DNA from: Akkermansia muciniphila
Lineage (GTDB): Bacteria > Verrucomicrobiota > Verrucomicrobiia > Verrucomicrobiales > DEV007
Assembly (NCBI GenBank): GCA_945883495.1
Contig: CAMCXS010000027.1
Location: 1-64,000 of the forward strand
Direction of reading: 5' to 3'
DNA length: 64,000 bases
The notes under the pieces were generated by a model. That model was not told the DNA's origin. It saw nothing but the letters and a program-made list of their open reading frames with translations, and searched no databases. Shown here in pieces: positions 5,321-14,771 of this stretch; the first letter of the stretch is position 1; each line of letters opens with the position of its first letter. Both the position numbers and the translations under genes were made by a program.

Positions 5321-5670
5321 CACGGCGACCGGTGACCCGTGGGCGGGCGGAGCGAAAAAGCAAATGTTTATCGTGCCAAGCATTTTGCGCACAAGAACAC
5401 CGGCACTCAAGATGTTCCATTGAAGCGAAGCGTCGATCTTTCTGTTCCGCGACGAACTCACCGCAGTGGCTACGAAGCTCCGGACACCGCCTTCGCATGG
5501 CCAATGAAGAGCGGGAGAAGCACTGGAAGGGCCGGTGCGAATCTGGGGTGGACGGCTTGTTCAGCCTACTACGGTTCTGACGAGGTCCGATCGCATGGCT
5601 TCCCGTCCTGCCTTTCCGCAATCTTTTGTAACACACGCATCCCTTCCTGGAGAGATGGGTTGAATTCTTC

Positions 5671-6201
5671 ATGCTCCCCGACGAACAACAGGAACACTTC
5701 ACCCGCCTCTGGACGGAGGTGCAGCCGTCGGTGTCAGGTTACGTTCATGCGGTGGTGCGGGACACGGCGGTGGCGAAGGACATCGTGCAGGAGACAGCGC
5801 TGGCGCTGCTGCGGAAGTTCGCAGAGTGGGACCGAACCCGCGACTTCCTGCCGTGGGCGCTCGGGACGGCGAAATATGCCATTCTTGCACATCGCCGCGA
5901 CTCGGCGCGGTGCCGGGTGACGTTTGATGACGAGGTTTTGCACGCTATCACGGAGACCTGGAGTGCCGTGGCACCGGAGATCAGCGATGAGCAGGCGGCG
6001 CTGCACGTGTGTCTGCAAAAACTTGCCCCGCATGCCCGCAATGTCGTGCGAATGCGCTATGAGGAGTCACTCGATTCGCCGCAGATCGCTCAAAAGCTCG
6101 GCTCCACCGCGGGTGCGGTGCGCATCTCGCTCCAGCGCATTCGCGAGCAGCTCCGCGCCTGCGTGCAGCATCAACTCACCCTGGAAGGAGGTCTCTCATG
6201 A
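5671..6201 (+). CDS. ECF-type sigma-70 family RNA polymerase sigma factor
   Basis: 176 residues, the usual size for an extracytoplasmic-function sigma factor. Region 2 covers about residues 10-75 (HFTRLWTEVQPSVSGYVHAVV, then DIVQETALALLRKF and LPWALGTAKYAILAHRRD, which would contact the -10 element). Region 4 covers about 110-165 (LPPHA-like LAPHARNVVRMRYEE followed by the helix-turn-helix SPQIAQKLGSTAGAVRISLQRIREQL). The four-base overlap with the next gene, a FecR-type anti-sigma protein, makes this a sigma/anti-sigma pair. The secreted enzymes downstream are likely but unproven targets. Confidence 0.92.
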   Translation: MLPDEQQEHFTRLWTEVQPSVSGYVHAVVRDTAVAKDIVQETALALLRKFAEWDRTRDFLPWALGTAKYAILAHRRDSARCRVTFDDEVLHAITETWSAVAPEISDEQAALHVCLQKLAPHARNVVRMRYEESLDSPQIAQKLGSTAGAVRISLQRIREQLRACVQHQLTLEGGLS

Positions 6202-7685
6202 CGCGCGCCGAGGAACTCCTCACCGCTTATCTCGATGACGCGCTCACGGAGGCCGAGTACGCCGAGCTGAATGCGTGGCTGAAGGCCGATCCGGTGAATG
6301 TGCGGCGCTTTGTCGAAGCCACGGCACGCGAGCATCAGCTCCGCGTCGCGGTGCAGGCCCATCGGGAGTTTCGCAAGCCTGCCCCGCCCAAAATCGTGCG
6401 CTGGCGTTTCGCCGTCGCTTGGGCTGCCGCGGCAGTTCTGGTGCTCAGCGGAGCCTTTAGGATGCTATGGCAACCTTTTGAAGCCCAAGTGCATCTCGCG
6501 GGAGATCTCGACGGGGTGAACATCAAACGCGCCGGAGCCGTTTTGAAGGCTGAAACGGCGTTTCGCCTTCAATCCGGCGATCTGGTCACCTCCACACGAC
6601 CGGGTGCGAAGATCGAGTTTGGGAGCGAAGGCACGCGATTCGTACTCGCGGCGCGTTCCAGCGTGGCGCTTCGGGAGCTTCGCGGTCAAAAACGCTTCGA
6701 ACTGCTCGCAGGTAGTGTTTCCGCCGAAGTCGCCAAGCAACGCGACGGCGCGATGATCTGGCTCACCGAGGATGCGGAAGCGCAGGTGCTCGGCACCAAG
6801 TTTGAGCTTGGCGCCGACGGCCTGCTCACGCGGCTGGATGTGAGCGAAGGCGCAGTGCAGTTCCAGGGGCGCCATGCCGCTGAATCCACTGTTGTGCACG
6901 CGGGACAGCTCGCCGCGACCGACTCACAGAGCTTGATCCGACCTCGTGAAGCAGAACCCTGGTTGGTCTCCAATCGTCGCACCACGGGCTGCGAGCATGT
7001 CTCCTTTCGCAGCCGCGAGATGGATGTGGAGATCGGTGTGAATGTCCTGCTGCCGCCGCAGTATCTCAGCGAGCCAGCACGACGCTTTCCAGTGCTCTAC
7101 TTTCTGCAAGGCCTCACCGGCAATGAGCACACGGAGGCGGCGCGTTTCACCCGATTGTTTACGGAGGCAATGCGGCGCGGTGAACTGCCGCCGTTCATCG
7201 CGGTGTTCCCAAACGGCGGCCCAGGCTACACGCCACGTCCGATGATCGCCGGCCGCATCTTTGCGCAGGAGCTTCCCCGCTTCATCGACAGCCGCTATCG
7301 TACCCGGCCCGATCGATCCTCCCGCATGATTTGCGGCATCGGCTTTGGAGGCAAACGGGCTGTGCTCTACGCTACGCTCGATGCCCATGTGTTCGGCTCC
7401 GGTTGCGCCATCGACGACACCTTCCACGGAGGAACGCCGTCGTTTTTCAGCCTGCTCGATTCCATGCAATCCCGCATCTCCCGGAATCCTCCGCGGCTGC
7501 TCGTCCTTCACGGGCAGCCCTGGGCCACGGATAAGGTAGAGAAGCTCGCCACCTCGCTCCGATCCAAGGCCATCGCGGTCGAGACACGCGCGTTGCCTGC
7601 GCAGCCTCAGTCCGCCCCTGGCTACATGCCCGCTGTGGCAGCTGAGCTGGGCGGCTGGATCTTACAGCAGTGGCGCGACTTGTAA
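6198..7685 (+). CDS. FecR-domain anti-sigma factor fused to an esterase-like domain lacking its catalytic serine
   Basis: 495 residues. Residues 1-60 form a short cytoplasmic helical anti-sigma part (LLTAYLDDALTEAEYAELNAWL). Residues 71-90 are a membrane segment. About 100-250 is a periplasmic FecR domain (GDLVTSTRPGAKIEFGSEGTR, VLGTKFEL, TRLDVSEGAVQF). About 265-495 resembles the esterase D / enterochelin esterase fold (PVLYFLQGLTGNEH, FIAVFPNGGPGY). In that fold the nucleophile elbow is normally G-x-S-x-G; here it is GIGFGG with Gly382 in the serine position, and the C-terminal histidine motif is not recognisable. The domain is therefore probably a ligand sensor, not an enzyme. It overlaps the sigma gene by four bases. 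Confidence 0.85.
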   Translation: MTRAEELLTAYLDDALTEAEYAELNAWLKADPVNVRRFVEATAREHQLRVAVQAHREFRKPAPPKIVRWRFAVAWAAAAVLVLSGAFRMLWQPFEAQVHLAGDLDGVNIKRAGAVLKAETAFRLQSGDLVTSTRPGAKIEFGSEGTRFVLAARSSVALRELRGQKRFELLAGSVSAEVAKQRDGAMIWLTEDAEAQVLGTKFELGADGLLTRLDVSEGAVQFQGRHAAESTVVHAGQLAATDSQSLIRPREAEPWLVSNRRTTGCEHVSFRSREMDVEIGVNVLLPPQYLSEPARRFPVLYFLQGLTGNEHTEAARFTRLFTEAMRRGELPPFIAVFPNGGPGYTPRPMIAGRIFAQELPRFIDSRYRTRPDRSSRMICGIGFGGKRAVLYATLDAHVFGSGCAIDDTFHGGTPSFFSLLDSMQSRISRNPPRLLVLHGQPWATDKVEKLATSLRSKAIAVETRALPAQPQSAPGYMPAVAAELGGWILQQWRDL

Positions 7686-7804
7686 TTCATCAGTCCTGCC
7701 TATCAAAGCGACGCTACTCCTCCTTTTGACGCTTGGTCCCTTTGGTGGACAGAAGAGGGAATGATGCTTGTCCCCCCCCGAAGCCTAGCTTCCACTTTCA
7801 GCCT

Positions 7805-8014
7805 ATGAAAACGCCGATGACACTTATATTATTGTTCGCCTTCATCTGCGGCAGTGAGGCGCAGGAAAAACCAAATATCCTCTTCATTGCCATAGACGAC
7901 CTTCGACCCGAGCTGGGTTGTTACGGCGCGGCACAGGTAAAAACTCCGCACCTGGACAAGCTGGCGGGCCAGGGACCCAACTTTGATGAAAAGCGGTGGT
8001 GGAAGTCGCGTTGA
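7805..8014 (+). pseudogene. Truncated sulfatase (N-terminal remnant)
   Basis: From ATG 7805 the frame reads a signal peptide (MKTPMTLILLFAFICGSEAQ) and the first strand of a type I sulfatase: KPNILFIAIDDLRPELGCYG, then KTPHLDKLA, close to the iduronate-2-sulfatase pattern. It then diverges (NFDEKRWWKSR) and stops at 8014, before the C-x-P-x-R active-site motif, so it cannot be active. It directly precedes and slightly approaches a complete, only distantly similar sulfatase starting at 8049. A deletion that removed the rest of the gene is the simplest explanation. Confidence 0.75.
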
Positions 8015-8048
8015 TGCATTCTGCATCCGAAACCTTTCACCCGTCCGA

Positions 8049-11730: not shown

Positions 11731-11810
11731 GCGGTGGGACGGCTGTCACGATCAACTTCATGTAACACCGAGCGCCTGCCAGGGAGAGATGAGGTGGAAA
11801 ACCACCTCGC

Positions 11811-14771
11811 ATGAAACAACTGATCTTCGGCGGCCTCGGACTCTTCTTTGCCTCCAGTGCGCTTGCCGTAGCGCCGCTCATCAGTGATGTGGCGGATCAA
11901 AACATCGCGCAGGGAACCTCGACCGGGACGCTCTATTTTGTCGTTGGAGACACGGAGACCACTTTCACCGCACTCACCGTAGCGGCGGTATCCAGTGATC
12001 CGGCGTTGCTGCCCACGCTGACGCTTGGAGGCACGAATGCGCAGCGCACCATTCACATCACGGCAGCAAGCGGCCTCACCGGCACGGCGACAGTCACGCT
12101 CACCGTCACCGATGGCGAGGCACTCACGGCGAGCAGTTCCTTCATTGTCACCGTCACCGCGGCCAACACGAAACCCACGCTCACGGCTTTGCAGGGTTAT
12201 CAAATCGTCAGTCCCGGGCAAACTCCAGCGGCGGTGAGTTTTACGATCGGAGACGCTGAGACGTCAACGGATTCGTTGATTCTCACCGCCACTTCCTCAA
12301 AGACCAGCCTCGTGCCGAATGCGAACATCACGCTCGGTGGCAGCGGGGCGAGCCGCACGGTGCAGGTCACTCCGGTGAGCGGGCAAAAGGGCGCTGCGGT
12401 GATCAAGCTGCGGGTGACGGATGCGCTGGGTGCCTCAGCGGAGAGCGAGTTCATCTTCAGCGTGTTTGATGCGGCCTCGGTGAACAATGGCTTCAAACAG
12501 CCGCGCGGTATCTACCTGCTCGATAGTGTGGCAGGCTCCAGCATCGGCGGGGTATCGATGCGCGACGGCAACGTGCGCGACAAACCCTTTGTCGATGGCT
12601 ATGTGCTGCGCACGGAATGGGCCACCCTGGAGCCGGCCGAGGGCGTCTATGATTTCACCATTATCGACAATATCTTCACCAAGCTGCCCGCGAATCAGAA
12701 GCTCTCCCTCATGCTCGCCAGCGGTGTTCTACCAACGTGGCTAAACAGCGTCCCCGGCGTCGTCACCTACACCGCGGGCTCTCCGAGCGTCACCCGTCCC
12801 CTGCCCTGGGATGCCACTGCCCAAGAGCGCTATCGCCTGCTGCTGGTGGCGCTGGGGAATCATCAGGTCGGTGGGGTTCAGCTCCGGAATCACCCGCGCC
12901 TCGCCGCATTCGATCCATGGATCCCTGGACTCAAGAGCGGGATCCGCGACCCGGATGAGATCAAGATTCGCAATCTGCCCGGCTACACCCGCGCACTCAT
13001 GGAGGGCGGCGTGCTGACCCACCTCGCGAACGTCACCGACAACTTCCCGAACGTGCCGGTCTTCATCGGCCTCTGGGGCTACACGGATACGACGAACAGC
13101 CCCGCCGCATGGGAAGCCTTGCGCCAAGCCATCCTCGCGCGGCACGATGGAGTCGCCCGCCCACGTGTCGGCTTCTGGATGGAAAATCTGGCTGCCAATC
13201 GTGCGGCGGCGGGGAGTGATCCTTGGATCGGCCTCCCGAGCCTGAGCTTCACGGCCCCACTCTACACCTCGCAAGACAGCACCTTCATCACCTATCAAGT
13301 GCTCGGATCATGGTCACGCCCCTTTGCCCCAGACCATGTGGACAACAACCTCAACGGCAGCCCCGAGGACGGCATGGACTACGGCTTCAACGACTTTCAA
13401 TGCCGCTACTACGAGCACTATCAGGCCGATGTCGATTTCGCGGGCTACACGGCGGAGTTTCAGCGCTGGCATGATTTCCTCGCCGCGCTGCCGGGACCAC
13501 CCATCACCGTTGCTTTCGCCAGCAGCCAGGGCGGCACCAGCCTCAGCGCGGCGCATGGGGCCAGCGTAAACATCACCCTCAGCGCCAGCGGCGGCACCGC
13601 ACCGTATGCGTGGGCCATCATCGGCGGGGCTTTGCCCAGTGGCATCACCTTAAGCAGCGGCGGCGTACTCAGCGGCTCCAGCACGCAAACCGGCAGTCAC
13701 AGCCTCACCGTGCAGGTCACGGATGCGACCGGCGGCAGCGCGACGCAGACCTACACGCTGGTGATTGAAGCGCCGCCCAGTGAACCGTGGTGGACGGTGA
13801 ACGCGACCCGAAACAGCGATGGCACCGTCACGCTCGACTGGGCGACGACACCTGGCGCATGGTACCAAATCGAAGTCAGCGAGGATCTCCAGCACTGGAC
13901 GAAGCTCGGCACCTCGGTTCAGGCCACGACTACCTCGATGACCTGGACCGACAATGGCTCCCAGACCGGCACGCATCCGTCTTCCGCCCCTAGACGCTTC
14001 TACCGCGTTCTAAACTGGGGAATTTTCACTGTCAGCTACTCTGGGCCCAACGGCACCAACTTCACCTACTCAGGCGATGACGGCACGGTCACCGGCATCT
14101 TCGTCAAGCCCGCCGGCACCGGACCGTTTCCCGCGCTCATCATCAATCATGGCACCAGTGGCACGGCGGGCGGCTTTGGTCTGCAACGTGCCAACGAAAT
14201 GAGTCCCTGGGGACTCGCCTGCATCGCCGCGAACCTCACCCACATGTCTGGGCAGTCCGAGAATCTAGACACCTGGGGCTACTCGCCCGAGAATTTGGCA
14301 CGCAACCGCGCTTGCTTGGCTGTACTTTCCACGCGCAGCGATGTGAACATCAACAAACTCGCCATGTGGGGGCACAGCCGCGGAGGTTTCGCCAGCATCG
14401 GCATAGCCGCCGCGTTTGGCACGCGTCTCAAAGCGCTGGGATTTACCGCAGCCGGTATCTTGGAAAACACGGGCATCTACGAAGGCACGGGCCAGGCCGA
14501 AGGCAGCTACCCTACGCTGGACGAAGCATCTGGCATCACCGCTCCCACGATCATGTTTCATGGCAGTGGCGACAACGTCGTTTTGCCCACAGGATCACTT
14601 CGCTTGCATACCATGCTCAACACCCGCGGCACCACCAACCAGCGCATCGTCTATACCGTCACTGGAGCCAACGCCCACAACCTCCAGAACACCACCTTTT
14701 ACGCACAGCCCACGACGGGCATCCTGGATCAATGGCGCGCTTGGCTCATCACCCATAGGGTCCTGGACTGA
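11811..14771 (+). CDS. Large secreted multidomain protein: Ig-like repeats, glycosidase-like barrel, C-terminal alpha/beta-hydrolase
   Basis: 986 residues with a signal peptide (MKQLIFGGLGLFFASSALA). About 20-225: two cadherin/Ig-like repeats (ATVTLTVTDGEALTASSSF and VIKLRVTDALGASAESEF). About 230-565: a region resembling a TIM-barrel glycoside hydrolase (GYVLRTEWATLEPAEGVYDF, KLSLMLASGVLPTWL). About 566-650: a putative-Ig (He_PIG) repeat (LPSGITLSSGGVLSGSSTQ). About 655-735: the WYQIEVSEDLQHWTKLG...RFYRVL module frequent in Verrucomicrobia. About 740-986: a dienelactone-hydrolase-like domain with Ser856 in GHSRG, Asp in GSGDNVV and His in GANAHNL. The esterase triad looks intact. It is last in the sigma/anti-sigma/sulfatase block. 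Confidence 0.8.
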   Translation: MKQLIFGGLGLFFASSALAVAPLISDVADQNIAQGTSTGTLYFVVGDTETTFTALTVAAVSSDPALLPTLTLGGTNAQRTIHITAASGLTGTATVTLTVTDGEALTASSSFIVTVTAANTKPTLTALQGYQIVSPGQTPAAVSFTIGDAETSTDSLILTATSSKTSLVPNANITLGGSGASRTVQVTPVSGQKGAAVIKLRVTDALGASAESEFIFSVFDAASVNNGFKQPRGIYLLDSVAGSSIGGVSMRDGNVRDKPFVDGYVLRTEWATLEPAEGVYDFTIIDNIFTKLPANQKLSLMLASGVLPTWLNSVPGVVTYTAGSPSVTRPLPWDATAQERYRLLLVALGNHQVGGVQLRNHPRLAAFDPWIPGLKSGIRDPDEIKIRNLPGYTRALMEGGVLTHLANVTDNFPNVPVFIGLWGYTDTTNSPAAWEALRQAILARHDGVARPRVGFWMENLAANRAAAGSDPWIGLPSLSFTAPLYTSQDSTFITYQVLGSWSRPFAPDHVDNNLNGSPEDGMDYGFNDFQCRYYEHYQADVDFAGYTAEFQRWHDFLAALPGPPITVAFASSQGGTSLSAAHGASVNITLSASGGTAPYAWAIIGGALPSGITLSSGGVLSGSSTQTGSHSLTVQVTDATGGSATQTYTLVIEAPPSEPWWTVNATRNSDGTVTLDWATTPGAWYQIEVSEDLQHWTKLGTSVQATTTSMTWTDNGSQTGTHPSSAPRRFYRVLNWGIFTVSYSGPNGTNFTYSGDDGTVTGIFVKPAGTGPFPALIINHGTSGTAGGFGLQRANEMSPWGLACIAANLTHMSGQSENLDTWGYSPENLARNRACLAVLSTRSDVNINKLAMWGHSRGGFASIGIAAAFGTRLKALGFTAAGILENTGIYEGTGQAEGSYPTLDEASGITAPTIMFHGSGDNVVLPTGSLRLHTMLNTRGTTNQRIVYTVTGANAHNLQNTTFYAQPTTGILDQWRAWLITHRVLD

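Follow-up and report, generated by a model that had tools for sequence, protein, structure and literature searches.

Enzyme-derived sensor domains on anti-sigma factors are best known from the RsgI proteins of Clostridium thermocellum. RsgI6, for example, is an anti-sigma-I factor with a GH10 ectodomain that has very low activity and binds both xylan and cellulose, and its sigma factor controls xylanase genes (PMC4711584); a signalling model is also available (PMC12203970). Predicted glycosyl hydrolase or carbohydrate-binding parts also occur in the ECF52 and ECF53 sigma/anti-sigma systems (PMC10766802). In E. coli FecR, Gly181-Thr182 is the presumed self-cleavage bond, and the equivalent cleavage in FoxR proceeds via an N-O acyl rearrangement (PMC9249621).

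In the window (the whole 64,000-nucleotide stretch of Akkermansia muciniphila contig CAMCXS010000027.1 that was analysed), a FecR-domain anti-sigma factor is fused to an esterase fold with glycine in place of the catalytic serine (Table 1). The closest precedent is RsgI6, as both are anti-sigma factors with an enzyme-derived outer domain. The two differ in their sigma factor (SigI versus an ECF sigma factor of TIGR02989), in their anti-sigma domain and in the fold of the outer domain (glycosidase versus esterase), and RsgI6 keeps very low activity whereas the nucleophile is lost in every member of the window type. E. coli FecR and Pseudomonas FoxR resemble the window protein in having a FecR domain, a single transmembrane helix, an overlapping upstream sigma gene and a Gly-Thr bond, but in those two proteins the C-terminal domain reads an outer-membrane receptor, whereas the window protein has the esterase fold in this position and no adjacent receptor gene. 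FecR-LamG proteins of the same genome also have a FecR backbone with a C-terminal outside domain, but this is a lectin-like LamG domain. In ECF52 and ECF53, it is the sigma factor rather than the anti-sigma factor that carries the fused carbohydrate-related parts, and the portions of the source drawn on here do not mention an esterase. Finally, the CE1 feruloyl esterases (XynZ domain 1jt2 and BT_4077 7xrt) share the fold over 223-226 residues (Z 22) but have a catalytic serine, where the window protein has glycine and no conserved aspartate or histidine.

The reading that we favour, and consider somewhat probable, is that this protein is a membrane-anchored anti-sigma factor with a non-catalytic, esterase-derived ectodomain that detects an acylated glycan and thereby frees the sigma factor. 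Two observations make the dead enzyme a probable sensor for the material digested by the live enzymes: the break in its active site is kept in all five relatives (the window's included), and the switch appears to activate a nearby secreted enzyme gene. Ligand binding, the identity of the ligand, self-cleavage, proteolysis and sigma release are steps that we infer. If the reading is true, it extends the principle of enzyme-derived sensors both to the esterase fold and to ECF/FecR systems in Verrucomicrobia. To our knowledge, the signals of these systems are mostly unknown.

Organization of the sigma/anti-sigma locus

The sigma factor belongs to a Rhodopirellula/Verrucomicrobium ECF subfamily, and the 3' end of its gene overlaps the start of the fusion gene by 4 bp (ATGA). 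A sigma gene lies 5' of the fusion gene at each of the five loci. Two Pfam domains of the fusion protein exceed their cut-offs: FecR (38.2 bits against a cut-off of 24) and Esterase (PF00756, residues 272-401, E 1.9e-13). No RsgI domain was found in a Pfam search of the window protein with E-values up to 1. In a structure model of the full-length, 495-aa protein, the FecR part is of low confidence. An earlier note on this DNA, made from the sequence alone, had described an anti-sigma FecR protein that overlaps its ECF sigma gene and is fused to an esterase fold without the catalytic serine; the Pfam domains, the nucleophile elbow and the five genomes agree with this description.

Table 1. Features of the sigma/anti-sigma locus and its likely target in the window (positions in nucleotides).
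Feature	Position	Strand	Details
Promoter-like element TGTAAC-N16-GGAGAGATG, 5' of sigma gene	5627..5657	+	no-mismatch occurrence
ECF sigma factor, TIGR02989 (Sig-70_gvs1)	5671..6201	+	149.7 bits vs cut-off 124.55
Anti-sigma gene, ATG start, 495 aa	6198..7685	+	N-terminal helical domain / TM helix / FecR / dead CE1 esterase
N-terminal helical domain, presumably sigma-binding, residues 1-66	6198..6395	+	zf-HC2/DUF4880 similarity weak, below cut-off
Predicted transmembrane segment, residues 72-90	6411..6467	+	hydropathy maximum; helix 77-88 in model
FecR domain PF04773, residues 132-221	6591..6860	+	Pfam E 2.1e-9
Gly199-Thr200, predicted self-cleavage bond	6792..6797	+	aligns exactly with Gly181-Thr182 of E. 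coli FecR
Dead CE1 esterase domain, residues 266-495 (~230 residues)	6993..7682	+	Pfam and structure model
Nucleophile elbow GIGFGG	7335..7352	+	Gly382 codon GGC at 7341-7343, serine position
Asp406-Asp407 after strand 6	7413..7418	+	invariant in dead clade, almost absent from live esterases compared
Promoter-like element, second copy, 5' of hydrolase gene	11761..11791	+	no-mismatch occurrence
Likely target: 986-aa secreted protein, Ig-like and GH42-like parts, C-terminal alpha/beta hydrolase (GHSRG)	11811..14771	+	

The Gly-Thr pair is kept in all FecR proteins compared, and a cut at this bond would give a membrane fragment (residues 1-199) and a fragment carrying the dead esterase (residues 200-495). 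As other FecR proteins in the same genome carry LamG ectodomains, varied outer modules on a FecR backbone appear normal in this lineage. No gene for a TonB-dependent receptor or outer-membrane transporter was found among the annotated neighbours of the loci. Because no receptor gene adjoins them, the membership of these proteins is limited to the FecR-domain anti-sigma factors and does not extend to surface signalling of the FecA/FecR type. S2P-family proteases are encoded in the window genome and could act as RseP equivalents.

An esterase fold without its nucleophile

An AlphaFold2 model of residues 247-495, built from five sequences (pLDDT 78.6, pTM 0.82), contains the complete strands and helices of an alpha/beta-hydrolase, through to the last helix. 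Its top structural matches are CE1 feruloyl esterases, namely 1jt2 (Z 22.6, rmsd 3.0, 223 residues) and 7xrt (BT_4077, Z 22.3), with the enterochelin esterase Fes (3c87) a little lower (Z 20.3). The likeness to esterase D/enterochelin esterase that had been suggested for this region thus holds at the level of the PF00756 fold but is refined to CE1. The matches also include 1gkl, 7xrv and 7z2v. Crystallographers swap the CE1 serine for alanine to capture ligands. The serine loss seen here is comparable to the alanine change in those three structures, and seems to have become fixed in a sensor.

In a phmmer alignment to PDB sequences, Gly382 of the elbow (G380-I-G382-F-G-G) shares a column with Ser150 of the BT_4077 feruloyl esterase, which is serine in 7xrt and alanine in the S150A mutant 7xrv; the glycine for serine reported from the letters alone is therefore at the nucleophile position. 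All five fusions have a G-x-G-x-G elbow with glycine at the nucleophile, whereas each of 47 unfused esterase domains taken from the same searches has serine. The question raised in the earlier note, whether the serine is always absent from such fusions, is answered by glycine in 4/4 homologues, and no fusion with an intact G-x-S-x-G motif was found in the approximately 1,300 genomes searched. Chance is excluded because the glycine and the fusion are conserved in five genomes, and a sequencing error at the serine codon is ruled out on the same grounds. The rest of the triad is less uniform. No conserved catalytic aspartate after strand 7 was found among the five fusions. The final histidine had been described as missing, and this is correct for the window protein, which has no histidine in the loop past the last strand (466-475, PAQPQSAPGY), and for three of the five fusions in all; the two distant fusions L025 and L026 keep a histidine in or near the catalytic loop. 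The universal loss is therefore that of the serine only.

Among the residues invariant in the five dead domains and rare in live ones are H311, G382, D406 and D407. In the model, G382 comes after strand 5 and the Asp pair after strand 6, at the active-site end of the sheet, and H311 comes after strand 3. Structure prediction, which had been suggested as a way to look for a ligand pocket, thus yielded the complete fold, and the four residues may share a single pocket. It might be argued instead that the domain is still catalytic, with the Asp pair replacing the serine and the sensor being an enzyme of changed type: the pair is invariant and near the former active site, and two distant members have the histidine mentioned above. 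We consider this very improbable, as the elbow is without serine, cysteine or aspartate in every member and the triad aspartate and histidine are not conserved.

Relatives of the fusion and selection on its parts

Only five members of this type are known, including that of the window, and weak members may be missed because the large searches scored only 3-4 candidates per genome. The four full-length homologues all come from another family of the same order as the window genome and share 75% (G167), 66% (G135), 43% (G171) and 40% (G134) identity with the window fusion. Searches of the class and phylum with the thresholds used gave FecR-only or esterase-only matches and no further fusions, and no FecR-esterase fusion was found in the open-access papers searched. 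The five fused esterase domains form one clade with a support of 100/100 and a long stem. We found no support for the idea that the dead domain arose from the esterase encoded in the same operon: the long-stemmed clade lies outside the downstream esterases, with the root uncertain.

A domain without its nucleophile could serve only as a passive aid to folding or stability, or be a relic nearing loss, with the signal entering via FecR itself. The triad aspartate and histidine lack conservation, and the last 83 residues vary, with 22-34% identity to all but the nearest homologue and dN/dS values of 0.29 and 0.52 when the window is compared with the two homologues nearest to it; these residues are nevertheless part of the fold. 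However, the values for the esterase core (residues 255-412) in the same comparisons are 0.16 and 0.23, with 0.14 for FecR, and between the window and the most distant homologue the core reaches 54% identity where FecR has 42% and the N-terminal domain 31%. The modelled fold is complete, and Gly382 and the Asp pair are invariant. Based on the purifying selection and the complete fold, the dead domain is not a decaying remnant, and we regard a passive role as quite unlikely.

The fusion cassette is patchy in its distribution, being present in the window genome and not found in two genomes of the same genus. The window RecA is 97% identical to those of the same-genus genomes and 77% identical to that of G167, the genome of the nearest fusion, which rules out a misbinned contig. 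As RecA ties the contig to its own genus, horizontal transfer or repeated loss of the cassette is likely. The closest pair in the FecR half of the fusion is L023/L024 (87%), and in the dead-esterase half it is the window and L023 (75% versus 57-61%). Judged from these identities, the two halves of the gene have different histories, possibly through recombination. In a genome of the same genus (G074, L012 520-2355), a single frame encodes tandem PF00756 esterase domains, both with an intact GFSMGG.

Linked hydrolase genes and a shared promoter-like element

Each of the five loci has a gene for a large secreted protein that contains an alpha/beta hydrolase with a GxSxG motif. In the window this gene lies approximately 6 kb downstream of the sigma gene and encodes 986 residues; G167 and G135 have close counterparts near their fusions. 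The large secreted proteins encoded at window 11811-14771, L067 10838-13765 and L068 7087-10161 combine Ig-like repeats, a weakly GH42-like barrel and a C-terminal alpha/beta hydrolase, and are 78-84% identical across the barrel. Outside the window, three of the four loci encode a live PF00756 esterase immediately 3' of the fusion. The one in G167 and in G135 is a secreted protein (GFSMG) encoded a few bases downstream. In G171 the esterase is part of the product of the next gene, which overlaps the fusion by ATGA; this 917-residue protein combines a weakly GH42-like region with a live PF00756 esterase (GFSMG) and a live DLH-type hydrolase (GHSMG). No such esterase is found immediately 3' of the fusion in the window or in G134.

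These neighbours bear on a further explanation, that the dead domain senses a protein rather than a small ligand by docking the co-encoded live esterase or an outer-membrane transporter, gain or loss of contact being the signal. Pseudo-enzymes often bind partners, and live esterases occur in the same operon at three loci. Canonical FecR also receives its signal from an outer-membrane protein, FecA (PMC9249621). This explanation is nonetheless unlikely: a transporter gene is absent among the annotated neighbours, the operon esterase is missing immediately 3' of the fusion in the window and G134, and the residues conserved in the dead clade map to the active-site end of the sheet. The ligand of our preferred sensor is most likely an acylated glycan, which fits the enzymes encoded nearby as well as the CE1 fold. 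A siderophore-like ligand, the other candidate of the earlier note, finds no support in the gene neighbourhood. The proposal in that note of a dead enzyme acting as a sensor that controls the overlapping ECF sigma factor is supported.

A promoter-like element links the sigma gene to the hydrolase gene. TGTAAC-N16-GGAGAGAT occurs without mismatch twice in the 6.46-Mb window genome, 5' of these two genes only, and once each in G167 and G135, 5' of the hydrolase gene. In the other six genomes examined, namely G171, G134 and the non-carriers (two of the same genus among them), no match is better than one mismatch, and two matches were found in 0/100 shuffled controls of the window, even with up to two mismatches. 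The sequence TGTAAC-N16-GGAGA lies 5' of the sigma genes in the window, G167 and G135, and in G171 with two changes. In the window, G167 and G135, the GGAGAGATG form is also found 5' of the large hydrolase gene, where its spacer is unrelated; the two-site element is therefore not a recent duplication. In G134, whose sigma factor is only 30-33% identical to those of the other loci, both sites read TGTAAC-N16-CTCCTAA, a sequence found exactly twice in that genome and not at all in six others tested. Thus, the sigma factor and the second box change together. Because of this covariation and the constant 16-bp spacing, we read GGAGAG as a probable -10 box, while it could alternatively be a ribosome-binding site. 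These sequence data are good evidence that both the sigma operon itself and the hydrolase gene are transcribed by this sigma factor, and the shared element supports the prediction that the overlapping sigma factor controls the secreted hydrolases linked to it. The element also defines a small, directly testable regulon.

The G134 locus differs from the others in its regulatory core. At L066 (3142-5260), a different pair of sigma factor and anti-sigma N-terminal domain accompanies the dead esterase sensor. Compared with approximately 30% identity for the sigma factor and the low value given above for the N-terminal anti-sigma domain, the dead esterase is much better conserved, and the secreted hydrolase target remains. 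From these identities, the core seems to have been swapped and the sensor kept, a pattern that a sensor matched to its target explains better than a passive domain.

Proposed mechanism

We predict that, in the cytoplasm, the N-terminal helices bind and retain the ECF sigma factor encoded with them. Outside the membrane, the FecR domain probably cuts itself at Gly199-Thr200, and the C-terminal piece carrying the pseudo-esterase would stay attached non-covalently. The CE1 (feruloyl/acetyl-xylan esterase) fold, which has lost its catalytic serine, would have been retained as a binding domain, the ligand most likely being an acylated oligosaccharide of the type handled by the linked enzymes. Its binding may displace the periplasmic part or open it to proteolysis, after which an S2P/RseP-type protease would release the sigma factor. 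The freed sigma factor would then transcribe its own operon and the gene for the secreted GH42-like/alpha-beta-hydrolase protein. More tentatively, we suggest as a possible origin that a CE1 fold was converted once, through the serine-to-glycine change and a new Asp-Asp pocket, into a binder of acylated oligosaccharides that triggers a self-cleaved FecR, such that the substrate of the linked enzymes releases their sigma factor.

Other genes near the fusion

Next, 3' of the window fusion, come a truncated sulfatase gene, a full sulfatase gene and genes for a cytochrome c protein and a 3-keto-disaccharide hydrolase. The truncated gene (7803-8040) is a sulfatase gene start that ends after approximately 70 residues, directly before the complete one. 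Upstream of the sigma gene are an IS200-like (Y1_Tnp) transposase gene (24-1049) and a VapB-antitoxin/PIN-domain pair (1478-2145).
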